Assembly (NCBI RefSeq): GCF_026151205.1
Contig: NC_087078.1
Location: forward strand, 9,440,675-9,504,674
Origin: Bolinopsis microptera
Lineage: Eukaryota; Ctenophora; Tentaculata; Lobata; Bolinopsidae
Direction of reading: 5' to 3'
Length of the DNA: 64,000 nucleotides
In this document: positions 8,733 through 48,397 of the stretch, piece after piece
Position numbering within the stretch: position 1 is the stretch's first letter
Layout: every line of letters starts with the position of its first letter
Notes under the pieces: model-generated
Told to the model about the DNA's origin: nothing
The model's database searches: none
Seen by the model: the letters and a program-made list of their open reading frames with translations, nothing else
Translations under genes and position numbers: made by a program

Positions 8733-9325
8733 AAGCTTGAAGCACTGTTAGTATGAAGTAGGATAAGCTTGAAGCACTGTTAGTATGAAGTAGGATAAGC
8801 TTGAAGCACTGTTAGTATGAAGTAGGATAAGCTTGAAGCAATGTTAGTATGAAGTAGGATAAGCTTGAAGCTATGTTAGTATGAAGTAGGATAAGCTTGA
8901 AGTACTGTTAGTATGAAGTAGGATAAGCTTGAAGTACTGTTAGTATGAAGTAGGATAAGCTTAGAGCACTGAACTTAGTATGAAGTAGGATAAGCTTAAA
9001 GTACTGTTAGTATGAAGTAGGATAAGCTTGAAGCACTGTTAGTATGAAGTAGGATAAGCTTAGAGCACTGTTAGTATGAAGTAGGATAAGCTTAAAGCAC
9101 TGTTAGTAAGTTAGTATGAAGTAGGATAAGCTTAGAGCACTGTTAGTATGAAGTAGGATAAGCTTGAAGCACTGTTAGTAAGTTAGTATGAAGTAGGATA
9201 AGCTTGAAGCACTGTTAGTATGAAGTAGGATAAGCTTGAAGCACTGTTAGTATGAAGTAGGATAAGCTTGAAGCACTGTTAGTATGAAGTAGGATAAGCT
9301 TGAAGTTAGTATGAAGTAGGATAAG
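8733..9325. repeat. 32 bp minisatellite overlapping the ribokinase 3' end
   Basis: About 18 tandem copies of a 32 bp unit that starts AAGCTTGAAGCACTG and ends ATGAAGTAGGAT. Several copies carry a duplicated GTTAGTAA step. Read on the minus strand, the unit contains TATCCTACTTCATACTAA, which is the final Tyr-Pro-Thr-Ser-Tyr-stop of the ribokinase gene. The array therefore appears to have grown from the gene's stop-codon region into its 3' UTR. Confidence 0.95.
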
Positions 9326-10226
9326 AACTCTGAGTACCTAGCTTAGTGACACTCTGAGAAGCAACACTACAAGCAAAATCAACCTTCCTTTGAAATGACC
9401 TTCCTTTTAACGACTCGTCAGCCAACAGACAAGCAAGTGATCCGATAAAAGCATCCCCAGCACCAGTGGTATCAACAGCTTTAACCTTCGGACAGGGAAC
9501 ATGGACATTTTCACCAGAGCCGTCTTGATAAATCACACCATTGGCTCCAAGAGTTACCATTCCCATCTTGCAACCTTTCTTTCTTAACAGACCCGCTGCA
9601 TTAGAAGCCTCTTCCACTGAGTTAACAGAATCTAATCCAAGGAGCTTCTCTGCCTCAGATTCGTTAACACAGAAGATATCAACTAGCTTGTACAGTTCGT
9701 CAGGGAGGCTATCAGTTGCCGGGGCAGCGTTGTAGATAGTGGTAATGTCCTTGTTTAAACTCTTGATAAGCTTCAGAGCAGTCAAGTTGGTGGATAAAGG
9801 TATTTCCTGTTGGAACACCACAACTTTGCTGCTTGCCAGAAGACTCTTGGCTTGATTAACAGCCTCGTCATCAAGCTCGTTGTTTGCTCCTCCGACTATA
9901 ACAATACAGTTCTCAGCCTGATTGTCCACTGTAATGGTAGCCACACCAGAAGCTGCATACTCCACCCTCCCAACGTGGGTGATGTCTACTCCGACATTCT
10001 TCAAATTCTCTATGTAATTATCTCCGAATGTGTCTGTACCCAACTTGGCTACAAGAGCCGTCTTTGCACCTAGTTTTGCAGCCATTACAGCTTGGTTGGC
10101 TCCTTTCCCGCCAAAACCCACCATGAACTTAGTTCCATGGACAGTTTCTCCGCCCTTTGGTAGAACTGGGACGTAACTGATCAGATCAGTCATACAAGAT
10201 CCCACAACAACAACAGTTGCAGTCAT
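9306..10226 (-). CDS. RBKS: Ribokinase (PfkB family)
   Basis: 306 aa when started at ATG 10226. An acceptor-like GTTCTGCAG lies just upstream, so a 5' UTR intron is likely. Ribokinase phosphorylates D-ribose with ATP to ribose-5-phosphate in the cytosol. Seen: the N-terminal GGKGANQA sugar-binding motif (residues ~39-46), YNAAPA mid-protein, the PfkB signature DTTGAGDAF (~252-260) containing the catalytic Asp, and the family C-terminal GTQSSYP. Length is normal for the family. The last residues (TSY) and the stop lie inside the 32 bp minisatellite, so length variation in the array borders the reading frame. No coding introns. Confidence 0.95.
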   Translation of the reverse strand: MTATVVVVGSCMTDLISYVPVLPKGGETVHGTKFMVGFGGKGANQAVMAAKLGAKTALVAKLGTDTFGDNYIENLKNVGVDITHVGRVEYAASGVATITVDNQAENCIVIVGGANNELDDEAVNQAKSLLASSKVVVFQQEIPLSTNLTALKLIKSLNKDITTIYNAAPATDSLPDELYKLVDIFCVNESEAEKLLGLDSVNSVEEASNAAGLLRKKGCKMGMVTLGANGVIYQDGSGENVHVPCPKVKAVDTTGAGDAFIGSLACLLADESLKGRSFQRKVDFACSVASQSVTKLGTQSSYPTSY

Positions 10227-10250
10227 TCTCAGCTCTGGTCTGCAGAACAC

Positions 10251-11107
10251 CTTTTAAATAAATTATTTCAGTTTAATTTTGACTATAACTTTCATGCATT
10301 ATATTATAGTCGAAGTTTAGATAAAATCAGGGAACATGGTGGCTTATTAATTCCCAAATTCAATGTACTTTACATAAATAAGCAAATTACAATTTATGGC
10401 TTACATAGTTTGGAGAACTATAATTCAACAATTCAAATGACTACACATAGTTGCCTTCTTTAACAAAAAATAATAGCTTAATTGATAAATCAAAATGTTT
10501 CATATATAATAATTTAAAATCTGATACTCATCTCATAACGACTGTTCAGTGATGCAGCTTGTATTTTTTTTAAATTTTATGAAAAATTTATTAAAAATAA
10601 AGAATAGTTATAGGCTTTAAAATGAATGTATCACAACTTAATCCTCCATTGACAAAAAATCTTTAACTTATTGAAACTAGAAGACATAATACTGTTAAAT
10701 CTAATCAAAAACTTTTTATGAACGGTTTTTTTCATATGCAACATTACTGCTTCATTGGCCAAAGTTACAATTTATGTTTTGATGCGATGCGGAAGTTGTT
10801 TAGTTAAAAAAATGTTAAATTATCAGAGAGATCAATTAATGACAATAGTCTCTAGAACTTATCAATTAATAATTTTGTAATCTTAATAATCTTGCATGGC
10901 TGAAATGTAACGCTTGATTTATGTACTATGTAATAATTAACTGAATTTTCAAATAAGAAATTAAAAAATATGAAAAATAACGTAAATCGAATCAACAAAA
11001 TAATAAAGCATTTAATCAAACTATCTAATCTAAGGGTAGCTTCAAGGGGAGCTAAAAATATAAATATTTGCATTAAGGTCTGTCTTCTGAATATAATAAC
11101 AAAACAA
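10251..11107. other. AT-rich spacer between ribokinase and receptor gene
   Basis: Very AT-rich with short A/T runs. I see no supported gene. The part near 11107 would be the 3' UTR of the receptor gene on the minus strand. Confidence 0.55.
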
Positions 11108-12328: not shown

Positions 12329-12984
12329 CGCTGGTAAGAGAACGTGATTTTACAGTTGTTAACTGTATAAATATTATATTATATTTTTTAGCTGTATAAA
12401 TATAATATACCTATATAAATAAGTATAGTACTACCCCATATTATGGTATAAACAATAAACATAATATGATATGAGTGTAGTACAATGTATTCGATAAAAC
12501 TCAGTAAATCAAAGAAAAAATACACAATAAGTATTATATATATAACAGAGAAAACATTCAAGATAAATAAACTAACATACAATACTGGATACTGGGGGGG
12601 GGGGCCAATGGCATAAAATGGCATAAAATGACATAAAATGGCATAAAATGGAGACTTTTTCTATGGAGAAAATGGAAAAACCCATGAGTAATTCTCCATT
12701 TTCTCCATTTTATGCCATGAATTTTGTCTTCGAAATTTCATCTTTAACACCATTTAACACCTAAATTGGACATCCTAACATGTTTATTTACGATTACTAG
12801 GGGCGTAACAAGCTTATGAAAGCTCATAGTAGGCTACTTGATGCTTATACTAGGTTAGTAGAGGCACACTTCAGGCAAACTCCTAATTACTCAAGCCTAG
12901 TGTAAAGTTATTTCTACAGGCTTCAGCAGGAGTGAGTAATAGGGGAGAGTAATAGGCACTGAGAAGTGAGACCTACATCCTCGA

Positions 12985-13663
12985 CAGTCGAAACAAGCTC
13001 GCACTGCAAAGGGGAGGCCTGCCTTCCGAGATCGCATTACCAGGGGGAAGCCTCGAGTCCAAATTTGTGTATCGAGGGGTAGGTGCAGACTTCGATAAAC
13101 CGAAAAACCAAAAAAAAATATTTTCGGCTAATAATGAAGAGGGTAGCATGAAACGTGGAGAAAAGTGGTTTTTAGAAAAACTTTGAAAAATTTTGACTTG
13201 GAAAATTTTCGGCCCGAGTCATTCTCGATACGTACCTCTCGTATCGAGAGCTCCCGATTCCGAGCTCGTGTTGCAAAGGGGAGGCCTGCCTACCGAGATC
13301 GCATTACCAGGGGGAAGCCTCGAGTCCAAAATTGTGTACCGAGGGGTAATTTTCTAAGTCAAAATTTTTCAAAGTTTTTCTGAAAAACACTTTTCTCCAC
13401 GTTTCATGCTATCTTGTTCATTATAAGCCGAAAATATTTTTTCGGTCAAAATTTTTCAAATTTTGTCTGAAAACCGCTTTTCTCCACGTTTCATGCTACT
13501 CTGTTCATTATTTGCCGAAAATATTTGTTCGGTTTTTCGAAGTCCACACCTTCCCCTCGATACACAATTTTGGACTCGAAGTAATGCGATCTCGGAAGGC
13601 AGGCCTCCCCTTTGCAACACGAGCTCGGAATCGGGAGCTCTCGATACGGGAGGTACGTATCGA
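12985..13663. repeat. Inverted copies of the ~240 bp unit
   Basis: A unit containing GATACGTACC, GGGGAGGCCTGCCTTCCGAG and the ATACACAATTTTGGACTCGA block appears here first in one orientation (to ~13360), then in the other. It matches 15005-15845 and the units inside the elements at 37.5, 39.9 and 42.1 kb. Short ORFs here are shadows of the repeat. Confidence 0.8.
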
Positions 13664-15004
13664 TTGATTGATTGATTGGGAACTGGGTTTTACTACCCCA
13701 GTTAATGTTTACTAAAATAGATATTGAACAGCAATTTAATAAGATAAAAATCGTACCAGCGTACTTTAAAATCTGTATGATTCATGAAATTAAAAGTAGC
13801 TATGACCATTAAGAGTTAAATATATTGTTTATATTCCCCATCATGGACTAGTGGCTCAACAAAACTGCGTCGGAAATTAAAGCTCAGCTAAAGCCTGAAG
13901 ACTATTCAGTCTTGTATAGAAAATAACTACAGCTACCAATATGTCCCTCACAAACATGGTCCAAAACATATCAAAACAGCACACGAAACACACACTCAAA
14001 AAAAGTTGTCAACCGTTGCTCTCATCGGCACAATAAATTTGCCCGTCCTTTATGTAAAACTTTTTGGTCGGTTCTGCAAGTGCCCGCTTCTTCATGTCCT
14101 GTACCAGATCTTTCCTGAGCTTCCTCTGTTCGACAGACCGATCAGGGCTCAAGAAAACTGTCTTAAACTTCTCACTCTGCCGCAGGTTCCTGGCATTCCT
14201 CAGAATCTGATCAACGATGAGCGAGTTTGAGGTGATAACTTTAACTGGTCGCGTTGAGTCAACCGTTTTCTTTTTTCCTATTCTCTGAGCCTCTACTTTT
14301 GGCTTTATGCCAATAGTTTCCAGAACTTCACTGACTTGAGATTCGAGCTTCTCTTCTTTTTCCTCAGGCAGACCGAAGATAAGAAGGTTCCTGCTGCGGT
14401 CCTCCTCTGCAACAATAGTCTCGACTACAGACGTCAATGCTTCCGGGCTGATTACTGGAGACTGTGCTGGCCAACTTTGAACGACAGAGCTGTAAGATTG
14501 GAACTCCGCTTTCACTGAATCAGCAACTGAACTTGACACAGTTTTCTTCATCGCTTCAAGTTGCTTAGTCTTGCAGCTGATAGCTCGGCCTGAACACTGA
14601 TAACCTGCTCTTGCTTCACAATTAACTGACCCTGAAGTCTGGTCAACACATTCTTATACGTTTCAACGGTCTCCATAAGATAGTTCGTATACTCAAAAGA
14701 TCGACCACACACATTGACAATCTCCGGCTTATTCAGTCTGTTGAAGTTCTTAGCGTCCGCAATGTCCTTTAACTTTCCGTACGGCTTGCCAAATTTCTTC
14801 AGAGTCTCTTTGCTCCAGGTGAACATCTCATTCCACATGTAATTGATACTTTCCAAGTCCAAATCTGCCATCGTAAAGATCAGCACAACAAGCTAGCAGC
14901 GCAGTAGCGGTGCAATTATCAAGAGATAAGCAGTGCGATAACGAGAGCTAACAATTTTAAAACGGCAGTGAGAGTGTATTTCGACTGAGTGAGAGTGTAT
15001 TTCG
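13664..15004 (-). mobile_element. LINE-like element with ORF1 only, nested in the G-capped insertion
   Basis: It interrupts a ~240 bp unit: the block GTACGTATCGA before it resumes as TTCGAAAATGACTCGG after it. On the minus strand it has a 5' part, an ORF1-like frame, a short 3' part and a tail of (AATC)n at 13664-13679, typical of non-LTR retroelements. No reverse transcriptase is present, so it resembles an internally deleted, ORF1-only derivative. Confidence 0.6.
14009..14886 (-). pseudogene. LINE ORF1-like protein (coiled coil plus RRM-like), frameshifted
   Basis: Two frames overlap: 14548-14886 (start MADLDLESINYMWNEM) and 14009-14551. The first gives an N-terminal part and a Gln-rich coiled coil. 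The second contains RSRNLLIFGLPEE, RPVKVITSN and VFLSPDRSVEQRKLRK, typical of the RRM-like core of LINE ORF1 proteins. Just upstream of the second ATG its frame reads CKTKQLEAMKK, which continues the coiled coil, so a single-base indel near 14580 probably split one ORF of ~290 aa. ORF1 proteins bind RNA in the retrotransposition particle. Confidence 0.65.
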
Positions 15005-15845
15005 AAAATGACTCGGACCGAACATTTTCTAAGTCAACATTTTTCAAAGTTTTTCTGAAAACCACTTTTCTCCATGTTTCATGATACTCTGTTCATTATT
15101 GGCCGAAAATATTTTTTCGGTTTTTCGAAGTCCACACCTTCCCCTCGATACACAATTTTGGACTCGAAGTAATGCGATCTCGGAAGGCAGGCCTCCCCTT
15201 TGCAACACGAGCTCGGAATCGGGAGCTCTCGATACGGGAGGTACGTATCGAAAATGACTCGGACCGAACATTTTTCTAAGTCAGCATTTTTCAAATTTTT
15301 TCTGAATCCGCTTTTCTCCACGTTTCATGCTACCCTGTTCATTATTTGCCGAAAATATTTTTTCGGTTTTTCGAAGTTCACACCTTCCCCTCGATACACA
15401 ATTTTGGACTCGAGGTAATGCGATCTCGGAAGGCAGGCCTCCCCTTTGCAACACGAGCTCGGAATCGGGAGCTCTCGATACGGGAGGTACGTATCGAAAA
15501 TGACTCGGACCGAACATTTTTTAAGTCAGCATTTTTCAAATTTTTTCTGAAAACCGCTTTTCTCCACGTTTCATGCTACCCTGTTCATTATTTGCCGAAA
15601 ATATTTTTTCGGTTTTTCGAAGTCCACACCTTCCCCTCGATACACAATTTTGGACTCGAGGTAATGCGATCTCGGAAGGCAGGCCTGAGGCCTGCCTTCC
15701 GAGATCGCAATGGCCTCCCCTTTGCCTCCCCTTTTCTAAGTCAACATTTTTCAAAGTTTTTCTGAAAACCACTTTTCTCCATGTATCATAATGTTTCATG
15801 ATACTCTGTTCATTATTGGCCGAAAATATCTTTTTTTTAGATAAT
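15005..15845. repeat. Tandem ~240 bp units (3-4 copies)
   Basis: Successive copies start at about 15005, 15256 and 15505, each with ACTCGGACCGAACATTTT, TTTCATGCTACCCTG, CCGAAAATATTTTTTCGG and the GGGAGCTCTCGATACGGGAG block. The last copy is rearranged at about 15680 by a small inverted duplication (AGGCAGGCCTGAGGCCTGCC). Confidence 0.85.
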
Positions 15846-16326
15846 TTTTCTCGAAATTCTAAATTGTTCAGGTTTTCAATGGCATAAAATGGCATAAAAT
15901 GGAGACTATTTCTATGGAGAAAATGGAAAAACCTATGAGTAATTCTCCATTTTCTCCATTTAGGCCATTGCCCCCCCCCCCCCCCCCCCCCCCCCCTGGA
16001 TACTTTTTAAACCCCAACAAATTATCACTTAAAAGTTAGAATAGTAAGTAAAATGCAAACATTCAGTAATTAGAATAGATTACAAATAAAATATGAACAA
16101 ATTAATCACAGGAAATAAATGAAATTAAAATGTCTAAAATACGATAATATCCCCAAACTTGTAAAATATCTAGCTAATTAAGAACTTATTAACAGTTTAA
16201 AATTAGATAAAACTAAGTACAAGATTTATTTCATGCTAAAAAAGAGTTAATTATTTTAAATGTAAATTTAACAACTGGACCTTTTTATCTTCAGTTTTTC
16301 TTGCACATGGTTTATTTAATCTTTTG

Positions 16327-29302: not shown

Positions 29303-31556
29303 TTATAGCTTATTATAACCATTGATACAAAGGCCATAATCTTTCGCCAGCTCTCCAATATCCACCTTGAAAGCTTGAAGCTGCATTTTATATCCTTGAA
29401 CTACACAATATAAACTAAAGAATGTTTTAGTGTAGACTTTTTGTCACAACAAGACTGTAACCTATAATAACAACTATAAAAGTATAAACAGAACCCCTAA
29501 TGTCTGCTTACAATTTTTCTTCTAGTCCTAATCTGAGCCTTGTCTCTATAAACTTAACTGAACTAGCGTTTCGGTGTGTGCAAAAGCTTCCAGGCACGCG
29601 CATTCCTTGCCCCGTTAGTTACCTGTCCTTCCAAAACCAAACTAGCAGTCAAGGACAAAAAGTCATACACCAATTATGAATTGTTTTACATCTTTTTATT
29701 CTGTAAAAATGTGCTAAAATTAAATTTCTTGTTTCATTGAATTTCTTGTTTCATTGATCCGTGCCCTTTAACCAATGTTGTATCATAATTGTTAGATTGA
29801 TCTAATCTACTATATTTCAGACCAAGGAATGATAGTTAGACAACTGCAGTTAACTAAGTCACACAAAATGTGACATTTGAACCATTATAGTGCCTAACAA
29901 CAATAGATTTTCTATCTGAGCAGTGCATATGGGAGTATGGGTTACGTGGCTATAATGTTCAGAACTTCTGAACGTGCTAGGTTAATATATGTCAAAATTA
30001 AGCCACTATCGTCGAAAACGCTATCATTTTTGTTTACCAATATCCTCAAACTCAAATGAACGTGTCCATATACATTGTTTGTAGTATATTATTTGTAATT
30101 GTAGCGAGTTATCGGATGTTTTATCTTTGAGCGAGGCTATCTTTATAGGAGTAGTCAAGAAGCTTGAGTTTTGGTGCTATGACGTGCTCCAGATTTTAGA
30201 AGATCTAAATATAAAATCTTTTAATATAATGGGAATTGAGCAGTGAGATTGGTTTCCTTTCTACATGATAACTCATATTGCTGGTGCAGTGATGTTAGGC
30301 ATCTGAGTTTGGGTATTTTAAGGAGCACTCTCTTTGGGAGACCACTGTCCAATTATGCTTTCAAATGATATTATGTTAAAACAAGCTGCGGGGAAGGTTT
30401 TGATAGTCAGCTTAAATAAATTGCGACTACATAAAATCACTGAGACAAGAACAACCATAAATAAGGAATGACAACAAATAATTTGAGTGTTCACTAACAT
30501 TTACATTATTTATATTGCTGTCAATCGATATTATTACGTAAGCCACCTAATTTTACATACCAGCAAATTCATGGAAAAAACGACACTTCAAACCTCAAAA
30601 ATATGATTAACAATCGAAACCAGAAACAGCTGCTTATAATGAAGTTGCACTGCTGAAAGATGTATGAAACAGCGATAGTGAAAAATCGTGATTGATAGAA
30701 GCTGGAGTAGAGTTGAATGGTGAAGGTTTTCTAAGTGTACGTATATGTACCTTGTTTTTGATGAAGCTTTAGTGGGACACGAATGGATGGAGACATCCTG
30801 ATCCGGTAGATTTCCACAAAATGGTCAACCCAACAAAAACTCGGCAGTAAACCTGAAATTGTTAACGAAAGCACAAATTGACCATTGGCGATGAACTTTA
30901 AGTTTTAATCACTCGAAATTAGCATGCTATACCTTTGATCATGAATCACAGACTTTTAATCGAGTAAATAGTGTAGTCAAATATGAAGTATAGAATAACT
31001 GAATAAGGTGTTATTAAGGCTAGACGTTAACTAAGCTTGAAGCAAACTACTGAGGATATAGAACCAGCGCAGCACTCCTGACAAAACCAATTTTGCAATT
31101 TATCCAATGCGAAAATACGTATTAACAGTTAAATGAAAAAAGTTTGGGCGAGCGATTTAGTGAGCGCGTAATGGTCTGGCCCGGCGCGCGCTACTTCGTA
31201 GCACGTGCCAACACTTCGAGAAGAAAGCGGCGCGCGCTAATTCGGAGAAATTTAGACGAGTAACATCCGTCACGTTTTTTAAATTTGTGCGACCAGAAAT
31301 TTATACTAACTGAAACTGTCTTTGTTATTATTTCAGTGCGAACCAGCGCTCACACTCTCACAGAAAATCTTACATCACAGTTGACAGGATAATAATCTTA
31401 GTTATTAATTCTATCAACATTCTCTAATAAAGCGATGATTAAGAAATCCGCTTATTCTGATCTAAAATACCCAAATGATACAGAAATCATGCTTCGTCAC
31501 GTTTCTCCCAAAAAATCACATACTTTAAATTAAAATAAACACATATTGGTTTCTAA
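29303..31556. other. Repeat-derived and unique intergenic DNA
   Basis: 29851-30075 is a copy of a dispersed repeat that also occurs, split by an insertion, at 55690-57235. A GC-rich patch at 31150-31250 (GGCGCGCGC motifs) is of unknown meaning. The stretch just below 31557 would be the 3' UTR of the ZnT6-like gene. No other gene is supported. Confidence 0.5.
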
Positions 31557-34500
31557 CTAAAGCGTCCTCTCATTTCTGAAGCCAGAAGCGTTAAGTTTAG
31601 TAGCAGGTCTGAAGCCATGGGTAGCCGATGCTGACGTCACAGTTGGTCGTGATGACGTCATCAAGGGAGTATGAGCTATGTTGTTGAACAAGGCGGCGGT
31701 CTCTTCTTTTATCACTTGAACGTTGAGAAGTGTAACGTGTTGAGACAGCCTGTGTGTTACCTGTAATATAGTACAACGTCAGTGTAGTATTCTCAGTATG
31801 TTCCAACTTCCACTAAGGATGTCAATTATCATGTCGAAAAAGTGGATAAAACAATTATACTTCGAAGTTTTCTCCGGAATTTTTTTGAAAGGTCACACGA
31901 ATGAGCTTAAAATTATGTCTATTACCACCGCAACATTCCATTAAATATCTTACCTCAGCTAGAACAGTCTGCTATAGATATCTTACCTCAGCTAGAACAG
32001 TCTGCTCCATTAAATATCGTACCTCAGCTAGAACAGTCTGCTCCATTAAATATCTTACCTCAGCTAGAACAGTCTGCTCCATTAAATATCTTACCTCAGC
32101 TAGAACATAGAACAGTTTGCTCTATTACCACCGCAACATTCCATTAAATATCTTACCTCAGCTAGAACAGTCTGCTATAGATATCTTACCTCAGCTAGAA
32201 CAGTCTGCTCCATTGAATATCTTACCTCAGCTAGAACAGTCTGCTCCATTAAATATCTTACCTCAGCTAGAACAGTCTGCTCCATTAAATATCTTACCTC
32301 AGCTAGAACAGTTTGCTCCATTGAATATTTTACCTCAGCTAGAACAGTCTGCTCCATTAAATATCTTACCTCAGCTAGAACAGTCTGCTCCATTAAATAT
32401 CTTACCTCAGCTAGAACAGTCTGCTCCATTAAATATCTTACCTCAGCTAGAACAGTTTGCTCCATTGAATATCTCACCTCAGCTAGAACAGTTTGCTCCA
32501 TTGAATATCTCACCTCAGCTAGAACAGTTTGCTCCATTAAATATCTTACCTCAGCTAGAACAGTCTGCTCCATTAAATATCTCACCTCAGCTAGAACAGT
32601 TTGCTCCATTAAATATCTCACCTCAGCTAGAACAGTCTGCTCCATTAAATATCTCACCTCAGCTAGAACAGTTTGCTCCATTAAATATCTTACCTCAGCT
32701 AGAACAGTTTGCTCCATTAAATATCTCACCTCAGCTAGAACAGTTTGCTCCATTAAATATCTTACCTCAGCTAGAACAGTATGCTCCATTAAATATCGTA
32801 CCTCAGCTAGAACAGTTTGCTCCATTAAATATCTCACCTCAGCTAGAACAGTCTGCTCCATTAAATATCTTACCTCAGCTAGAACAGTTTGCTCCATTAA
32901 ATATCTCACCTCAGCTAGAACAGTCTGCTCCATTAAATATCTCACCTCAGCTAGAACAGTTTGCTCCATTAAATATCTTACATCAGCTAGAACAGTATGC
33001 TCTAAATATCTCACCTCAGCTAGAACAGTTTGCTCCATTAAATATCTTACCTCAGCTAGAACAGTCTGCTCCATTAAATATCTCACCTCAGCTAGAACAG
33101 TTTGCTCCATTAAATATCTTACCTCAGCTAGAACAGTTTGCTCCATTAAATATCTCACCTCAGCTAGAACAGTTTGCTCCATTAAATATCTTACCTCAGC
33201 TAGAACAGTATGCTCCATTAAATATCTTACATCAGCTAGAACAGTATGCTCTAAATATCTCACCTCAGCTAGAACAGTTTGCTCCATTAAATATCTCACC
33301 TCAGCTAGAACAGTCTGCTCCATTAAATATCTTACCTCAGCTAGAACAGTTTGCTCCATTAAATATCTCACCTCAGCTAGAACAGTTTGCTCCATTAAAT
33401 ATTTTACCTCAGCTAGAACAGTATGCTCTAAATATCTTACCTCAGCTAGAACAGTTTGCTCCATTAAATATCTCACCTCAGCTAGAACAGTCTGCTCCAT
33501 TAAATATTTTACCTCAGCTAGAACAGTATGCTCTAAATATCTTACCTCAGCTAGAACAGTTTGCTCCATTAAATATCTTACCTCAGCTAGAACAGTCTGC
33601 TCCATTAAATATCTTACCTCAGCTAGAACAGTTTGCTCCATTGAATATCTTACCTCAGCTAGAACAGTTTGCTCCATTAAATATCTCACCTCAGCTAGAA
33701 CAGTTTGCTCCATTAAATATCTTACCTCAGCTAGAACAGTTTGCTCCATTAAATATCGTACCTCAGCTAGAACAGTTTGCTCCATTAAATATCTTACCTC
33801 AGCTAGAACAGTTTGCTCCATTAAATATCTTACCTCAGCTAGAACAGTTTGCTCCATTAAATATCGTACCTCAGCTAGAACAGTTTGCTCCATTAAATAT
33901 CTTACCTCAGCTAGAACAGTTTGCTCCATTGAATATCTTACCTCAGCTAGAACAGTTTGCTCCATTAAATATCTTACATCAGCTAGAACAGTATGCTCTA
34001 AATATCTCACCTCAGCTAGAACAGTTTGCTCCATTAAATATCGTACCTCAGCTAGAACAGTTTGCTCCATTAAATATCTTACCTCAGCTAGAACAGTTTG
34101 CTCCATTAAATATCTCACCTCAGCTAGAACAGTCTGCTCCATTAAATATTTTACCTCAGCTAGAACAGTATGCTCTAAATATCTTACCTCAGCTAGAACA
34201 GTTTGCTCCATTAAATATCTCACCTCAGCTAGAACAGTCTGCTCCATTAAATATTTTACCTCAGCTAGAACAGTATGCTCTAAATATCTTACCTCAGCTA
34301 GAACAGTTTGCTCCATTAAATATCTTACCTCAGCTAGAACAGTCTGCTCCATTAAATATCTTACCTCAGCTAGAACAGTTTGCTCCATTGAATATCTTAC
34401 CTCAGCTAGAACAGTTTGCTCCATTAAATATCTCACCTCAGCTAGAACAGTTTGCTCTATTAAATATCTTACCTCAGCTAGAACAGTATGCTCCATTAAA

Positions 34501-37500
34501 TATCGTACCTCAGCTAGAACAGTCTGCTCCATTAAATATCTCACCTCAGCTAGAACAGTTTGCTCCATTAAATATTTTACCTCAGCTAGAACAGTATGCT
34601 CTAAATATCTTACCTCAGCTAGAACAGTTTGCTCCATTAAATATCTTACCTCAGCTAGAACAGTCTGCTCCATTAAATATCTTACCTCAGCTAGAACAGT
34701 TTGCTCCATTGAATATCTTACCTCAGCTAGAACAGTTTGCTCCATTAAATATCTCACCTCAGCTAGAACAGTTTGCTCCATTAAATATCTTACCTCAGCT
34801 AGAACAGTTTGCTCCATTAAATATCGTACCTCAGCTAGAACAGTTTGCTCCATTAAATATCTTACCTCAGCTAGAACAGTTTGCTCCATTAAATATCTTA
34901 CCTCAGCTAGAACAGTTTGCTCCATTAAATATCGTACCTCAGCTAGAACAGTTTGCTCCATTAAATATCTTACCTCAGCTAGAACAGTTTGCTCCATTGA
35001 ATATCTTACCTCAGCTAGAACAGTTTGCTCCATTAAATATCTTACATCAGCTAGAACAGTATGCTCTAAATATCTCACCTCAGCTAGAACAGTTTGCTCC
35101 ATTAAATATCGTACCTCAGCTAGAACAGTTTGCTCCATTAAATATCTTACCTCAGCTAGAACAGTTTGCTCCATTAAATATCTCACCTCAGCTAGAACAG
35201 TCTGCTCCATTAAATATTTTACCTCAGCTAGAACAGTATGCTCTAAATATCTTACCTCAGCTAGAACAGTTTGCTCCATTAAATATCTCACCTCAGCTAG
35301 AACAGTCTGCTCCATTAAATATTTTACCTCAGCTAGAACAGTATGCTCTAAATATCTTACCTCAGCTAGAACAGTTTGCTCCATTAAATATCTTACCTCA
35401 GCTAGAACAGTCTGCTCCATTAAATATCTTACCTCAGCTAGAACAGTTTGCTCCATTGAATATCTTACCTCAGCTAGAACAGTTTGCTCCATTAAATATC
35501 TCACCTCAGCTAGAACAGTTTGCTCTATTAAATATCTTACCTCAGCTAGAACAGTATGCTCCATTAAATATCGTACCTCAGCTAGAACAGTCTGCTCCAT
35601 TAAATATCTCACCTCAGCTAGAACAGTTTGCTCCATTAAATATCGTACCTCAGCTAGAACAGTTTGCTCCATTAAATATCTTACCTCAGCTAGAACAGTT
35701 TGCTCCATTAAATATCTCACCTCAGCTAGAACAGTTTGCTCCATTAAATATCGTACCTCAGCTAGAACAGTCTGCTCCATTAAATATCTTACCTCAGCTA
35801 GAACAGTTTGCTCCATTAAATATCGTACCTCAGCTAGAACAGTCTGCTCCATTAAATATCGTACCTCAGCTAGAACAGTCTGCTCCATTAAATATCTTAC
35901 CTCAGCTAGAACAGTTTGCTCCATTAAATATCGTACCTCAGCTAGAACAGTCTGCTCCATTAAATATCTTACCTCAGCTAGAACAGTCTGCTCCATTAAA
36001 TATCTTACCTCAGCTAGAACAGTTTGCTCCATTGAATATCTTACCTCAGCTAGAACAGTTTGCTCCATTAAATATCTCACCTCAGCTAGAACAGTTTGCT
36101 CCATTAAATATCTTACCTCAGCTAGAACAGTATGCTCCATTAAATATCGTACCTCAGCTAGAACAGTCTGCTCCATTAAATATCTCACCTCAGCTAGAAC
36201 AGTTTGCTCCATTAAATATCTTACCTCAGCTAGAACAGTTTGCTCCATTAAATATCTTACCTCAGCTAGAACAGTATGCTCCATTAAATATCGTACCTCA
36301 GCTAGAACAGTTTGCTCCATTAAATATCTTACCTCAGCTAGAACAGTTTGCTCCATTAAATATCTCACCTCAGCTAGAACAGTTTGCTCCATTAAATATC
36401 GTACCTCAGCTAGAACAGTCTGCTCCATTAAATATCTTACCTCAGCTAGAACAGTTTGCTCCATTAAATATCGTACCTCAGCTAGAACAGTCTGCTCCAT
36501 TAAATATCTTACCTCAGCTAGAACAGTTTGCTCCATTAAATATCTCACCTCAGCTAGAACAGTTTGCTCCATTAAATATCGTACCTCAGCTAGAACAGTC
36601 TGCTCCATTAAATATCTTACCTCAGCTAGAACAGTTTGCTCCATTAAATATCGTACCTCAGCTAGAACAGTCTGCTCCATTAAATATCGTACCTCAGCTA
36701 GAACAGTCTGCTCCATTAAATATCGTACCTCAGCTAGAACAGTCTGCTCCATTAAATATCGTACCTCAGCTAGAACAGTCTGCTCCATTAAATATCGTAC
36801 CTCAGCTAGAACAGTCTGCTCCATTAAATATCGTACCTCAGCTAGAACAGTCTGCTCCATTAAATATCTTACCTCAGCTAGAACAGTTTGCTCCATTAAA
36901 TATCGTACCTCAGCTAGAACAGTCTGCTCCATTAAATATCGTACCTCAGCTAGAACAGTCTGCTCCATTAAATATCGTACCTCAGCTAGAACAGTTTGCT
37001 CCATTAAATATCTCACCTCAGCTAGAACAGTCTGCTCCATTAAATATCTTACCTCAGCTAGAACAGTTTGCTCCATTAAATATTTACCTCAGCTAGAACA
37101 GTATGCTCTAAATATCTTACCTCAGCTAGAACAGTTTGCTCCATTAAATATCTTACCTCAGCTAGAACAGTCTGCTCCATTAAATATCTTACCTCAGCTA
37201 GAACAGTTTGCTCCATTGAATATCTTACCTCAGCTAGAACAGTTTGCTCCATTAAATATCTTACCTCAGCTAGAACAGTTTGCTCCATTAAATATCTCAC
37301 CTCAGCTAGAACAGTCTGCTCCATTAAATATCTTACCTCAGCTAGAACAGTTTGCAACATTAAATATCTTACCTCAGCTAGAACAGTTTGCTCCATTGAA
37401 TATTTTACCTCAGCTAGAACAGTATGCTCTAAATATCTTACCTCAGCTAGAACAGTCTGCTCCATTAAATATCTTACCTCAGCTAGAACGGGGGGGGGGG

Positions 37501-40500
37501 GGGGGGGGGGGGGGGCCAATGGCATAAAATGGCATAAAATGGAGACTTTTTCTATGGAGAAAATGGAAAAACCCATGAGTAATTCTCCATTTTCTCCATT
37601 TTATGCCATGAATTTTGTCTTCGAAATTTCATTTAACACCTAAATTGGACATCCTAACATGTTTATTGACGCCTTACTAGGGGCGTAACAAGCTTATGAA
37701 AGCTCATAATAGGAGGGTTAATTTTTTAAGTCAAAATTTTTCAAAGTTTTTCCGAAAAACACTTTTCTCCACGTTTCATGCTACCCTGTTCATTATTTGC
37801 CGAAAATATTTGTTCGGTTTTTCGAAGTTCACAACTTCCCCTCGATACACAATTTTGGACTCGAGGTAATGCGATCTCGGAAGGCAGACCTCCCCTTTGA
37901 AACACGAGCTCGGAATCGGGAGCTCTCGATACGGGAGGTACGTATCGAAAATGACTCGGACCGAACATTTTCTAAGTTAACATTTTTCAAAGTTTTTCTG
38001 AAAACCACTTTTCTCCATGTTTCATGATACCCTGTTCATTTTTGGCCGAAAATATCTTTTTTTAAAATAATTTTTCTCGAAATTCTAGATTTTTCAGGTT
38101 TTCAATGGCATAAAATGGCATAAAATGGCATAAAATGGAGACTATTTCTATGGAGAAAATGGAAAAACCTATGAGTAATTCTCCATTTTCTCCATTTATG
38201 CCATTGGCCCCCCCCCCCCCCCGCTAGAACAGTTTGCTCCATTGAATATCTTACCTCAGCTAGAACAGTCTGCTCCATTGAATATCTTACCTCAGCTAGA
38301 ACAGTTTGCTCTATTACCACCGCAACATTCCATTAAATATCTTACCTCAGCTAGAACAGTCTGCTCCATTAAATATATTACCTCAGCTAGAACAGTTTGC
38401 TCCATTAAATATCTTACCTCAGCTAGAACAGTCTGCTCCATTAAATATCTTACCTCAGCTAGAACAGTTTGCTCCATTAAATATCTTACCTCAGCTAGAA
38501 CAGTCTGCTCCATTAAATATCGTACCTCAGCTAGAACAGTCTGCTCCATTAAATATCTTACCTCAGCTAGAACAGTTTGCTCCATTAAATATCGTACCTC
38601 AGCTAGAACAGTCTGCTCCATTAAATATCGTACCTCAGCTAGAACAGTCTGCTCCATTAAATATCTTACCTCAGCTAGAACAGTTTGCTCCATTAAATAT
38701 CGTACCTCAGCTAGAACAGTCTGCTCCATTAAATATCTTACCTCAGCTAGAACAGTCTGCTCCATTAAATATCTTACCTCAGCTAGAACAGTTTGCTCCA
38801 TTGAATATCTTACCTCAGCTAGAACAGTTTGCTCCATTAAATATCTCACCTCAGCTAGAACAGTTTGCTCCATTAAATATCTTACCTCAGCTAGAACAGT
38901 ATGCTCCATTAAATATCGTACCTCAGCTAGAACAGTCTGCTCCATTAAATATCTCACCTCAGCTAGAACAGTTTGCTCCATTAAATATCGTACCTCAGCT
39001 AGAACAGTTTGCTCCATTAAATATCTTACCTCAGCTAGAACAGTTTGCTCCATTAAATATCTCACCTCAGCTAGAACAGTTTGCTCCATTAAATATCGTA
39101 CCTCAGCTAGAACAGTCTGCTCCATTAAATATCTTACCTCAGCTAGAACAGTTTGCTCCATTAAATATCGTACCTCAGCTAGAACAGTCTGCTCCATTAA
39201 ATATCTTACCTCAGCTAGAACAGTTTGCTCCATTAAATATCTCACCTCAGCTAGAACAGTTTGCTCCATTAAATATCGTACCTCAGCTAGAACAGTCTGC
39301 TCCATTAAATATCTTACCTCAGCTAGAACAGTTTGCTCCATTAAATATCGTACCTCAGCTAGAACAGTCTGCTCCATTAAATATCGTACCTCAGCTAGAA
39401 CAGTCTGCTCCATTAAATATCTCACCTCAGCTAGAACAGTCTGCTCCATTAAATATCTTACCTCAGCTAGAACAGTTTGCTCCATTAAATATTTTACCTC
39501 AGCTAGAACAGTATGCTCTAAATATCTTACCTCAGCTAGAACAGTTTGCTCCATTAAATATCTTACCTCAGCTAGAACAGTCTGCTCCATTAAATATCTT
39601 ACCTCAGCTAGAACAGTTTGCTCCATTGAATATCTTACCTCAGCTAGAACAGTTTGCTCCATTAAATATCTTACCTCAGCTAGAACAGTTTGCTCCATTA
39701 AATATCTCACCTCAGCTAGAACAGTCTGCTCCATTAAATATCTTACCTCAGCTAGAACAGTTTGCAACATTAAATATCTTACCTCAGCTAGAACAGTTTG
39801 CTCCATTGAATATTTTACCTCAGCTAGAACAGTATGCTCTAAATATCTTACCTCAGCTAGAACAGTCTGCTCCATTAAATATCTTACCTCAGCTAGAACG
39901 GGGGGGGGGGGGGGGGGGGGGGGGGGGCCAATGGCATAAAAATGGCATAAAATGGAGACTTTTTCTATGGAGAAAATGGAAAAAACCCATGAGTAATTCT
40001 CCATTTTCTCCATTTTATGCCATGAATTTTGTCTTCGAAATTTCATTTAACACCTAAATTGGACATCCTAACATGTTTATTGACGCTTACTAGGGGCGTA
40101 ACAAGCTTATGAAAGCTCATAATAGGAGGGTTAATTTTTTAAGTCAAAATTTTTCAAAGTTTTTCCGAAAAACACTTTTCTCCACGTTTCATGCTACCTT
40201 GTTCATTATAAGCCGAAAATATTTTTTCGGTCAAAATTTTTCAAATTTTTTCTGAAAACCGCTTTTCTCCACGTTTCATGCTACCCTGTTCATTATTTGC
40301 CGAAAATATTTGTTCGGTTTTTCGAAGTTCACACCTTCCCCTCGATACACAATTTTGGACTCGAGGTAATGCGATCTCGGAAGGCAGACCTCCCCTTTGA
40401 AACACGAGCTCGGAATCGGGAGCTCTCGATACGGGAGGTACGTATCGAAAATGACTCGGACCGAACATTTTCTAAGTTAACATTTTTCAAAGTTTTTCTG

Positions 40501-43500
40501 AAAACCACTTTTCTCCATGTTTCATGATACCCTGTTCATTTTTGGCCGAAAATATCTTTTTTTTAAATAATTTTTCTCGAAATTCTAGATTTTTCAGGTT
40601 TTCAATGGCATAAAATGGCATAAAATGGCATAAAATGGAGACTATTTCTATGGAGAAAATGGAAAAACCTATGAGTAATTCTCCATTTTCTCCATTTATG
40701 CCATTGGCCCCCCCCCCCCGCTAGAACAGTTTGCTCCATTGAATATCTTACCTCAGCTAGAACAGTCTGCTCCATTGAATATCTTACCTCAGCTAGAACA
40801 GTCTGCTCCATTAAATATCGTACCTCAGCTAGAACAGTCTGCTCCATTAAATATCTTACCTCAGCTAGAACAGTTTGCTCCATTAAATATCGTACCTCAG
40901 CTAGAACAGTCTGCTCCATTAAATATCTTACCTCAGCTAGAACAGTCTGCTCCATTAAATATCTTACCTCAGCTAGAACAGTTTGCTCCATTGAATATCT
41001 TACCTCAGCTAGAACAGTTTGCTCCATTAAATATCTCACCTCAGCTAGAACAGTTTGCTCCATTAAATATCTTACCTCAGCTAGAACAGTATGCTCCATT
41101 AAATATCGTACCTCAGCTAGAACAGTCTGCTCCATTAAATATCTCACCTCAGCTAGAACAGTTTGCTCCATTAAATATCGTACCTCAGCTAGAACAGTTT
41201 GCTCCATTAAATATCTTACCTCAGCTAGAACAGTTTGCTCCATTAAATATCTCACCTCAGCTAGAACAGTTTGCTCCATTAAATATCGTACCTCAGCTAG
41301 AACAGTCTGCTCCATTAAATATCTTACCTCAGCTAGAACAGTTTGCTCCATTAAATATCGTACCTCAGCTAGAACAGTCTGCTCCATTAAATATCTTACC
41401 TCAGCTAGAACAGTTTGCTCCATTAAATATCTCACCTCAGCTAGAACAGTTTGCTCCATTAAATATCGTACCTCAGCTAGAACAGTCTGCTCCATTAAAT
41501 ATCTTACCTCAGCTAGAACAGTTTGCTCCATTAAATATCGTACCTCAGCTAGAACAGTCTGCTCCATTAAATATCGTACCTCAGCTAGAACAGTCTGCTC
41601 CATTAAATATCTCACCTCAGCTAGAACAGTCTGCTCCATTAAATATCTTACCTCAGCTAGAACAGTTTGCTCCATTAAATATTTTACCTCAGCTAGAACA
41701 GTATGCTCTAAATATCTTACCTCAGCTAGAACAGTTTGCTCCATTAAATATCTTACCTCAGCTAGAACAGTCTGCTCCATTAAATATCTTACCTCAGCTA
41801 GAACAGTTTGCTCCATTGAATATCTTACCTCAGCTAGAACAGTTTGCTCCATTAAATATCTTACCTCAGCTAGAACAGTTTGCTCCATTAAATATCTCAC
41901 CTCAGCTAGAACAGTCTGCTCCATTAAATATCTTACCTCAGCTTGAACAGTTTGCAACATTAAATATCTTACCTCAGCTAGAACAGTTTGCTCCATTGAA
42001 TATTTTACCTCAGCTAGAACAGTATGCTCTAAATATCTTACCTCAGCTAGAACAGTCTGCTCCATTAAATATCTTACCTCAGCTAGAACGGGGGGGGGGG
42101 GGGGGGGGCCAATGGCATAAAATGGCATAAAATGGAGACTTTTTCTATGGAGAAAATGGAAAAACCCATGAGTAATTCTCCATTTTCTCCATTTTATGCC
42201 ATGAATTTTGTCTTCGAAATTTCATTTAACACCTAAATTGGACATCCTAACATGTTTATTGACGCTTACTAGGGGCGTAACAAGCTTATGAAAGCTCATA
42301 ATAGGAGGGTTAATTTTTAAGTCAAAATTTTTCAAAGTTTTTCCGAAAAACACTTTTCTCCACGTTTCATGCTACCTTGTTCATTATAAGCCGAAAATAT
42401 TTTTTCGGTCAAAATTTTTCAAATTTTTTCTGAAAACCGCTTTTCTCCACGTTTCATGCTACCCTGTTCATTATTTGCCGAAAATATTTTTTCGGTTTTT
42501 CGAAGTTCACACCTTCCCCTCGATACACAATTTTGGACTCGAGGTAATGCGATCTCGGAAGGCAGGCCTCCCCTTTGAAACACGAGCTCGGAATCGGGAG
42601 CTCTCGATACGGGAGGTACGTATCGAAAATGACTCGGACCGAACATTTTCTAAGTTAACATTTTTCAAAGTTTTTCTGAAAACCACTTTTCTCCATGTTT
42701 CATGATAACCTGTTCATTTTTGGCCGAAAATATCTTTTTTTAAAATAATTTTTCTCGAAATTCTAGATTTTTCAGGTTTTCAATGGCATAAAATGGCATA
42801 AAATGGCATAAAATGGAGACTATTTCTATGGAGAAAATGGAAAAACCTATGAGTAATTCTCCATTTTCTCCATTTATGCCATTGGCCCCCCCCCCCCCCC
42901 GCTAGAACAGTTTGCTCCATTGAATATCTTACCTCAGCTAGAACAGTCTGCTCCATTGAATATCTTACCTCAGCTAGAACAGTTTGCTCTATTACCACCG
43001 CAACATTCCATTAAATATCTTACCTCAGCTAGAACAGTCTGCTCCATTAAATATCTTACCTCAGCTAGAACAGTTTGCTCCATTAAATATCTTACCTCAG
43101 CTAGAACAGTCTGCTCCATTAAATATCTTAACTCAGCTAGAACAGTTTGCTCCATTAAATATCTTACCTCAGCTAGAACAGTCTGCTCTATTAAATATCT
43201 TACCTCAGCTAGAACAGTTTGCTCCATTGAATATTTTACCTCAGCTAGAACAGTATGCTCTAAATATCTTACCTCAGCTAGAACAGTTTGCTCCATTAAA
43301 TATCTTACCTCAGCTAGAACAGTTTGCTCCATTAAATATCTTACCTCAGCTAGAACAGTCTGCTCGTTGGCATCTCGTCTGACCCTTACGTCGAGGGTTC
43401 CCGCTAAAACACCCCAAGTTAACGTCCAGAAGTGCTCGTTCCTGTAAAAAGCAGTGATGTTCACATCTTCTAGCTTAGATATGTGAAATAAATCAAAATA

Positions 43501-46500: not shown

Positions 46501-46597
46501 TAATGAATAGTTCAATTATCATATTCATTTAAGAATGAGGTCTAGGAGAATTCAAACTACAAAATAGATCGACTAACGTACACATAATATATATAAA

Positions 46598-46676
<79 letters not shown>

Positions 46677-48397
46677 GGCAGACAGGCAGGCAGGCAGACA
46701 GACAGACAGACAGACAGACCGACAGACAGACAGACAGACAGATACCTGTCATTGGCAGTAAGGTAGCGATGGTAATAAAGCTGATAAGGATAGCTATAAG
46801 AGGATCTGCTCCTGGCAGATCATATGAAGTAACTAGGTAGTATGAAGCTGCAACCCCCAGAGAGGATAAACCTGAAACGGGAGGAGAGTTAAAAAGTTAG
46901 AGCGTCCATTTCTATCATGAATATCATAGATCATTTGCCGGTAAATAAAAATAAAAACAAAACAAAACTTACATGTTACAAGAGCTAACGGGTTGAGAGG
47001 TTTACCAGGCAGAAACAATCCTGCCAGAAGAGGCACATACCCGAACAAGCTGCTACCTAATCGGAAAACAAGCTTAAAGTGGCAAATCAGTAGTCACGTG
47101 ACATTTGGAGTTAATAAAATACCAGTTCTAAATAGTGAGAGGTGAAATGATACCATCGAGTGTTTTTTTCCATAAAAAATACTTAACTTAAATCAATATC
47201 CATACTTCATTCATTTTATCTTGTCACGAAGGCGGATTCCGTCGTAAAATAAAAAAGATTGAATTGCAAGAAGTTCCGAGTTTAGTTACCTAAATCGTTG
47301 ACTGAGTCCTGTACCCAGTTGCTGGGAGAGGAGCGAGCTAGGTGCTCGTAAGCTGGGTTCTTCACCAGAAAAGTAGCTCCGAAATGTAGTCCAAGACCTG
47401 GTATTGAGTATATTGATTAGTAGGGGGAGGCAGGACATATTATTTGCTTTGACACGTGATGATTGGTAAAATGCGACCATTTAAGTAAAGCGTAGTTTGC
47501 TGAAATCTGTTCAAACACTTGCTTAGTGTTTAGTGCTTATTTCATTAATAAATATAACTTCCAACTTTGACTCAAAAACAGCGCATAAAATCTCACAAAC
47601 CAAACACAGTAGCCGGGAGCATGGAATCAGGTCTGAAGTCCAGTCCCTCGAGGAGATGATGCACAGCTTCCTTTATGATAAAGAAGGAAATGAACTGGGT
47701 GAGTAGAGTAGCGGAGAACACAGCCAGAACCTCTACTCTGGAGTAACCGTATGTGAAGGTCAGGGAGGGAGCCTGTTTCTCTGACCATCTGAACAATAAA
47801 TAATTCAATATTCTCCTCACATAATGTTGCAGGTTGAGCTTCAACCCGCTAATTTGTTTCAATTTCTTTCCTAGCCCCAACCCTCTGATGTTTCGATCAA
47901 TTTTCAAAAATTTGTATTACAGCTATCAAAAATATCCAGTATTGGACTCTACCTGCAGCCGATAGGATTAAAGAAAGTAATTACCTGAAGATGAGAGCGG
48001 ATACGAGATTAGCAAAGTCAAATAGGGTGAGAAAGGTGAGGGCCCGCAAAGCTAGACTGTTTGTAGAGTAAACCCAGTAAAACATGAATAGTATACCTGG
48101 AGAATTAGAGTTATTAGAAATGTAATAAAATAAGCAAATATTTTCTATTATATAGGTGAATACTGAATAATTATATAACATTGACTTAACTTAGCATTAT
48201 GAATGGCCACCGAAAAATCATTTTACTGCTCTTTGACTGCAACTAAAATAAGTCGGATTTAGTTCCTTAATCCAAGTAAAATATCATTTTCAAAAATTCA
48301 GGTTCAACTGACCTAAGAATGTTCCAGATATGGCATAAATACATCTCCGAGATTGAGGGTCACCGGAGAGCGATCTCAACTCCTTTAGCAAACCCAT
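31557..48397 (-). CDS. SLC30A6: ZnT6-like cation-efflux transporter (SLC30A6 family), nine coding exons
   Basis: CDS is complement of 48313-48397, 47985-48096, 47601-47788, 47290-47397, 46973-47056, 46746-46871, 46340-46445, 43345-43441 and 31557-31760. All junctions are GT-AG with matching phases; total 1110 nt, 369 aa. ZnT6 pairs with ZnT5 to load zinc in the secretory pathway and itself lacks the zinc-binding residues. Seen: TM segments (FMFYWVYSTNSLALRAL, VEVLAVFSATLL), VLLQTTPGH, TLDGVLEFR and NEHFWTLTWGVLAG, RRDANEQTVLAE then VTHRLSQHVTLLNVQVIKE. All align with vertebrate ZnT6 in order. TM2 reads FDFANLV, without the HxxxD of active ZnTs. The penultimate intron is 11.6 kb and consists largely of a splice-donor repeat array. 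Start 48397 follows an acceptor-like TTATTAG, so a 5' UTR exon is likely. Confidence 0.93.
37490..38222. mobile_element. G-capped insertion in the array (copy 1, 733 bp), TSD GCTAGAAC
   Basis: 26 G at the left, ~15 C at the right, GCTAGAAC at 37482-37489 and 38223-38230. End sequences CCAATGGCATAAAATGG and the internal ~240 bp unit match the 12594-15996 element. It has about 80 bp less than the next two copies (one fewer partial repeat of the CCACGTTTCATGCTACC block). Confidence 0.9.
39900..40719. mobile_element. G-capped insertion in the array (copy 2, 820 bp), TSD GCTAGAAC
   Basis: 28 G left, 12 C right; the same GCTAGAAC at 39892-39899 and 40720-40727. The array immediately to its left is nearly identical to that left of copies 1 and 3 (including the rare TTTGCAACATT variant), so the copies arose by duplication of array plus element. 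Confidence 0.9.
42090..42900. mobile_element. G-capped insertion in the array (copy 3, 811 bp), TSD GCTAGAAC
   Basis: 19 G left, ~15 C right; GCTAGAAC at 42082-42089 and 42901-42908. Same internal sequence as copy 2. Homopolymer lengths differ between copies, as expected for unstable G-runs. Confidence 0.9.
44405..45064 (+). CDS. Small secreted protein, two exons, nested in a ZnT6-gene intron
   Basis: Exons 44405-44462 (donor G|GTAGG) and 44616-45064 (acceptor CACCTAG), phase 1, 168 aa. AATAAA at 45074-45079 lies directly after the TGA, supporting the 3' end. The N-terminus is a signal peptide (MMLLITTIFITGISAFDQ). The mature part is Tyr/Ser-rich with three Cys (YYCGG, VQCNEV, STCSG) and beta-rich blocks (LDILFYSND, YYLYYCGG, IEIWRITLTK). 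I do not recognise the family. It runs opposite to the host gene, within its intron 43442-46339. A GT at 45051 could allow a further exon. Confidence 0.65.
45383..45404. repeat. Isolated poly-G run (22 G)
   Basis: Flanked by TTAAAAC and AGATTTCC with no partner C-run nearby. It could be a remnant end of a G-capped element or an independent homopolymer. 45080-46339 otherwise holds no gene I can see. Confidence 0.9.
46601..46743. repeat. (GACA)n microsatellite abutting a splice donor
   Basis: About 35 tetranucleotides with a few GGCA variants. On the minus strand it starts at the fourth base of the intron following exon 46746-46871 (donor CAG|GTATCTGTCTG), so the repeat forms the donor's downstream context. 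Confidence 0.95.

Follow-up and report, generated by a model that had tools for sequence, protein, structure and literature searches.

The question raised by this locus of Bolinopsis microptera is how an intron comes to be filled with copies of its own 5' splice site, and whether such a structure belongs to a kind already described. We find that the array in this putative zinc transporter (ZnT-like) gene is a real and very large case of a known kind, namely minisatellites built of a unit that straddles a boundary between exon and intron of the gene in which they lie. All coordinates refer to the 64-kb stretch of DNA that was analysed, positions 9440675-9504674 of contig C7 (the window), unless a contig is named.

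Structure of the host gene and its array

The host is assigned to the ZnT/SLC30 cation efflux genes on the basis of a predicted protein domain. An open reading frame upstream of the array (47593..47916, minus strand; the coordinates are those of the frame, within which exon edges are not delimited) holds one or more exons of the gene and matches the Pfam family Cation_efflux (PF01545) at 1.4e-11 (45 bits). A further exon is predicted in the frame at 46573..46896 (minus strand), whose first 52 amino acids match the same family at 3.2e-4, with a score of 21 bits that lies below the Pfam cut-off of 26.6 bits. The array is preceded by a 97-nt exon (43345..43441, minus strand; RNEHFWT to RRDANEQTVLAE), with the acceptor TTTTTACAG before 43441 and the first donor GT at 43344, directly after the exon. 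Beyond the array, a unique intron 3' end (31761..31938, minus strand) carries the acceptor AG at 31762-31761, and the last coding exon (VTHRLSQHVTLLNVQ through the stop codon) occupies 31557..31760 on the minus strand, as delimited by an open frame at 31557-31778 together with the acceptor. Between these two exons lies the last coding intron of the gene, 11,584 nt long; the final donor of the array is at 31953, 193 nt ahead of the next exon. The exons beside the array resemble vertebrate ZnT6 and may belong to a ZnT6. When joined, they match no Pfam family and align across the junction with Zinc transporter 7 (PDB 8j7t), weakly, at an E-value of 0.2. The initial annotation had proposed a ZnT6-like gene, an exon at 43441-43345 that resumes at 31760, and an intron of 11.6 kb with its last donor some 193 bp from the acceptor; these results support the positions and a gene of the cation efflux family.

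The array itself is a minisatellite on the minus strand (31939..43365), delimited by Tandem Repeats Finder (TRF), which reports a 36-bp period at 31937-43365 with three interruptions, and by a scan with a 22-nt core, which counts 251 units within 31939-43365 (130 exact, 120 with one mismatch and one with four mismatches). The spacing of the units is 36 bp in 223 cases, 33 bp in 20, 55 bp in two and 35 and 62 bp in one each; the remaining gaps of 777, 855 and 864 bp reflect three inserted elements. The unit GAGCAGACTGTTCTAGCTGAG|GTAAGATATTTAATG consists of the last 21 nt of the exon (encoding EQTVLAE) and the first 15 nt of the intron. It spans the exon-intron boundary of the host gene, and the array adjoins the exon itself; 21 of the 251 units copy the real junction letter for letter. 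Both the unit and the roughly 250 tandem copies had been described correctly from the outset. Since the 251 units are nearly identical, a chance origin is excluded.

Splice signals are retained throughout. The donor words are GAGGTAAGA (134 units), GAGGTACGA (49), GAGGTGAGA (47), GAGGTAAAA (14) and GATGTAAGA (4), with three single variants, and GT is kept in 250 of 251 units. The initial annotation had ascribed the donor GAG|GTAAGATATT to nearly every unit. This holds for the GT but overstates the uniformity: the full form is found in 132 of the 251 units, as is the 13-mer GAGGTAAGATATT, and strong pairing with U1 (-9.6 or -9.7 kcal/mol, calculated for the 5' end of U1) is predicted for 181 units, compared to about 0.2% of the remaining 6031 GT sites in the window. 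The first donor is in the strongest class (-9.6 kcal/mol), and each full bin of 25 units contains at least 10 units with GTAAGA. An in-frame exon extension without stop codons is possible from donors 1-10 only, as the frame is lost at a 55-bp unit after donor 10. The array was also considered as a coding repeat, and this was rejected: in addition to the short reach of the frame, the plus strand is open as well (1807 and 1661 codons), so that a long frame on the minus strand proves nothing.

Descent and growth of the array

The array descends from the exon-intron junction, because three units (two of 55 bp and one of 62 bp) keep 19 further bases of true intron, which also continue past the far end of the array. 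The 36-bp and 55-bp units differ by 19 bp that lie between two GA dinucleotides and are absent from the shorter one. The array also grew by amplification in blocks. Its 31 unit types are arranged as an ordered series, in which a run of 31 units recurs without change after 2190 bp, and one of 30 units after 1068 bp; in 200 shuffles the longest such run did not exceed 9 units. The proposal of an intron enlarged by amplification of its own junction, probably from a short ancestor, is supported by the composition of the unit and by the additional intron bases in three of its copies.

The interruptions have a related history. An inserted element with a G-run and a C-run at its ends lies at 42090..42900, as delimited by its edges and by identity to two further copies. 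The second copy (39900..40719) is 98.8% identical to the first, and the third (37490..38222), which has one inner repeat fewer, about 98%. All three (97-99% mutual identity) occupy the same position in the unit and are flanked on both sides by GCTAGAAC, which points to a single insertion that was amplified together with its block. Two further regions of the window, at approximately 12.6-13.7 and 15.0-16.0 kb, contain sequence related to the element.

A plausible course of events would begin with a short tandem duplication of the last 21 nt of the exon and the first 34 nt of the intron, giving a 55-bp unit. The loss of 19 bp between the two GA dinucleotides may then have produced the 36-bp unit, this order being the one we infer. 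Unequal exchange or slippage could subsequently have amplified the 36-bp unit, in part as blocks of some 30 units, with the inserted element copied as part of its block. The spliceosome most likely takes the first, exon-proximal donor, in which case later copies would be intronic, the protein would be unaltered and growth of the array would be nearly neutral; this could explain how the array was able to reach 11.4 kb. The strong donors found throughout the array speak against this reading; we infer the use of the first donor, and with it near-neutral growth, partly by analogy to arrays in lancelets (see below).

We note that part of the array has a copy elsewhere. A segment of 936 bp, about 210 kb away, is 99.5% identical to the far edge of the array (window 31169-32104); it includes the adjoining last exon together with four units and a fragment of a fifth. 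The 13-mer GAGGTAAGATATT has 160 matches in the genome (264.65 Mb, 232 contigs), and 83 of the 100 places listed are within the array. Two matches on contig C7 (9261808 and 9261913) were considered as an independent array and rejected, as both fall in the 936-bp duplicate. Among these 100 of 160 places, no array of the 36-bp unit was found that lacks the adjacent exon, the duplicate being the sole other locus. The initial annotation had named the same array without an adjacent ZnT6 exon, in a related species, as evidence against the proposed origin; in the organism's own genome, no such array is among the places listed.

Arrays at splice junctions of other genes

Junction arrays are present in at least four more genes of the genome, encoding NOG2, a dynein heavy chain, a Sushi protein and a Cep192-like protein. 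For NOG2, the array begins behind an exon ending in SNADMMCK and extends for about 6.2 kb; its 38-bp units combine 24 nt of exon with 14 nt of intron. Two pieces of it contain 12 and 72 units, the middle being known by pattern matches only. The upstream frame matches NGP1NT (4.3e-45), and joining the exons across the array gives a sequence that aligns with residues 313-406 of NOG2 in PDB 6lss without a gap at the junction (a 3-residue gap is located at an earlier join, where residues were omitted from the query). Seven copies of an acceptor-side repeat are found ahead of the exon ending in SNADMMCK. The dynein array consists of five irregular units. A search with its joined exons gives 14 PDB matches of 1e-6 or better, 13 of them named dynein; the best match (3.5e-9, with a five-residue gap at the junction) is a chain of 4730 residues labelled CFAP57, and the Pfam match to AAA_9 is weak (0.0038). 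The Sushi protein array is built of 54-bp units, with at least 44 donor words among the matches listed; the Sushi domain is matched in two stretches (6.1e-9), the better one lying in the downstream exon. The Cep192-like array comprises 45 units of 43 bp within a random 10-kb stretch; the upstream frame matches Cep192_D1 (1.7e-8), and the joined exons match Cep192_D3 at 0.006, below the cut-off.

Three further loci are probable junction arrays, judged from their sequence. In locus L010 (25 bp, 70 copies) each unit has a donor and at most a small amount of exon sequence, and its exon matched no family; at L043 (47 bp, 8 copies) and L047 (49 bp, 32 copies) the exons are predicted from open frames. 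Four arrays that were found by means of AGGTAAGTA have no clear exon at their edge, which indicates that some donor-bearing arrays of this genome are not junction arrays.

To what extent such arrays favour donors can be estimated from word counts. Three consecutive donor words have 3430 (AGGTAAG) and 3936 (AGGTGAG) matches in the genome, while six control words arranged in the same way have 96 (reversed AGGTAAG), 1671 (the control of AGGTGAG) and 1458, 1424, 832 and 2845 (two more words and their reversals). Both donor words exceed each of the six controls, at 2.7 times the control mean of 1388, with counts dominated by large arrays. The 36-fold excess suggested by 3430 versus 96 matches was discarded, as it depends on a poor control. 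As single words, AGGTAAG is found 35,435 times and its reversed control 27,862 times. The word AGGTAAGTA has 493 matches versus none for its control, and the acceptor-like TTTTCAGG has 204 versus 85. Counted as distinct loci in the listed stretches, the donor words yield five in about 2.5 Mb and two on one strand of about 1.1 Mb; for two control words, roughly 72 Mb hold 12. This larger excess is a hint only, as every donor-word stretch comes from the beginning of contig 1 and it is undocumented how the listing was ordered. Four plus-strand AGGTAAG arrays were noted in approximately the first 1.1 Mb of contig C1 (428574, 885211, 980853 and 1105104), three of them at exon ends backed by homology, the fourth at an exon end backed by an open frame. 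One strong-donor array was found in a random sample of eight 10-kb stretches, which is too small to yield a rate. A true excess of arrays at donors is likely. It is conceivable, albeit with some doubt on our part, that minisatellites arise preferentially at 5' splice sites in this ctenophore, and that amplification of junctions behind the first donor routinely lengthens introns throughout the genome.

Alternative readings and known minisatellites

The arrays in other genes also bear on how the donors of the ZnT-like gene are used. Several early donors might be in real use, with the protein gaining steps of 12 residues (VRYLMEQTVLAE) as in human IFI6, where two downstream repeat units serve as donors (PMC4526556). 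The first ten donors would permit such steps, being in frame and without stops, but the loss of frame after donor 10 argues against it, and as most units measure 36 bp, the in-frame start is explained by unit length alone. Furthermore, the seven regular arrays in the genome have units of 36 and 54 bp, which are divisible by three, and of 25, 38, 43, 47 and 49 bp, which are not; that only two of seven are divisible by three fits copies that are not translated. Early-donor use is hence unlikely. A function of the array itself is considerably less probable; one example would be a reservoir of U1 sites by which splicing or mRNA release is retarded or premature polyadenylation prevented. Such a function would suit the strong U1 pairing of 181 donors, but the commonest variable positions of the unit include donor +3, +4 and +5, and the donors therefore give no sign of being kept.

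An artefact of assembly, affecting the array or its length, likewise has very little probability. Identical runs of 30 units are places where assemblies collapse or expand, and the near-identical copy of one edge at a distance of about 210 kb might point in the same direction; against this, the window contains no N, the unit types form an ordered series, the copies of the element are not mutually identical and similarly built arrays occur at other loci. Hardly credible at all is a satellite that arose elsewhere, inserted next to the exon and is similar to a donor only by coincidence. Minisatellites are frequent in the sampled stretches, but each unit includes 21 nt of coding exon, three units include further true intron, and no independent array of the 36-bp unit is among the 100 of 160 places listed. 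The reading we prefer, and consider likely, is that of a mirage-type minisatellite in a ctenophore ZnT-like gene, which grew from a copy of the junction, with the first donor in use and growth close to neutral.

The term mirage was introduced for lancelets. The two reports describe minisatellite-like tandem repeats over 5' or 3' exon-intron boundaries, with many copies that carry AG/GT signals, in the genes for Adh3, troponin C, the globins BflGb6 and BflGb9, and PGBD5 (PMC3087553, PMC3902484). In Adh3 the units measure 10-72 bp; those of BflGb6 are 150-160 bp long and number 6 and 3 in two haplotypes. According to the authors, regular splicing is apparently undisturbed (PMC3087553). Mirages are further marked by a length that is unstable between haplotypes or in somatic cells, on which the block duplications within the ctenophore array, taken from one assembly, bear indirectly. 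The ctenophore array resembles these repeats in that its unit also spans a boundary of the host gene and its copies carry splice signals. It differs in its 251 units of mostly 36 bp, in an inserted element that was copied in blocks and in its host, a ctenophore and not a cephalochordate, the group so far reported for mirages; the latter is no structural trait. Of two glutamate receptors in this genome, one has the Mnemiopsis receptor ML032222a as its best PDB match and the other is matched best by kainate receptors; a pattern for Hox-type homeoboxes had no match, and no COX1 was found.

The minisatellite of human IFI6 (also known as 6-16 or G1P3) has a 12-bp unit in about 26 copies. Its units act as alternative splice donors (PMC4526556). 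Both repeats have a donor in their units; IFI6 makes use of downstream units, while the donors of the ZnT-like array are known from sequence. A statement of the initial annotation, that no minisatellite of this type was known at this scale, is not supported as regards the type, since the lancelet mirages and the IFI6 repeat are of this type (PMC3087553, PMC3902484, PMC4526556). A tandem duplication that spans a boundary and passes on its splice signals is further described as a source of intron gain for potato RdRp and for internal tandem repeats in human genes (PMC4974935, PMC2812944). There a new intron is born, whereas in the ctenophore an existing intron was lengthened by many copies. The literature searched, with most subscription papers outside its range, yielded no junction minisatellite of such size or from a ctenophore, and the ctenophore genome papers examined for tandem repeats or introns had nothing on boundary-spanning arrays. 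Ctenophores are probably a new phylum for boundary-spanning minisatellites.

The array extends such minisatellites, so far found in lancelets and in one human gene, to a ctenophore, with 251 copies over 11 kb. Provided that the spliceosome takes the first donor, all further copies would be hidden from the protein and growth would be nearly free. Arrays of this kind would then be natural experiments on the choice of the spliceosome among evenly spaced, near-identical donors, and amplification of junctions would offer a simple possible route of intron growth.

Coding exons elsewhere in the genome

Some exons of other B. microptera genes are followed by donor arrays of their own. The NOG2 exon is amplified at both edges: seven copies of an acceptor-side repeat (positions 2522-2806 of L044, a stretch of G000:C1:1102000-1105400) lie directly before the same exon that has the donor array behind it. 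The dynein heavy chain exon that stands before its own donor array contains an in-frame tandem duplication of ~57 codons (positions 784-1317 of L064, from G000:C1:883900-886900). Genes of the glutamate-receptor ligand-binding family, with 32 matches listed in the genome, appear to be intron-free, because many of these matches each fall within one open reading frame, 400-989 codons long.

Sequences inserted into or copied from the ZnT array

The element inserted into the array of the ZnT-like gene (window 37490-38222, 39900-40719 and 42090-42900) has G-run/C-run ends, AATGGCATAA repeats and an internal 87-bp repeat; related sequence is found at 12617-13663 and 15002-15986. An 8-bp direct repeat on both flanks is reminiscent of the target repeat of hAT-type elements. 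Window 31169-32104 is duplicated on the same contig with 99.5% identity (L009:4034-4966, from G000:C7:9257000-9266999). The duplicate comprises the last ZnT exon with its acceptor and four units plus a partial fifth one, and ends in an irregular repeat of ~42 bp.

An array containing a stop codon

On the minus strand, a gene for a carbohydrate kinase of the PfkB family (ORF 9306-10253; PfkB, 8.3e-65) runs in its final codons into 18 copies of a 32-bp unit (window 8733-9325). The unit contains the stop codon, and the repeat is hidden behind the first stop, much as the first donor may conceal the ZnT array.
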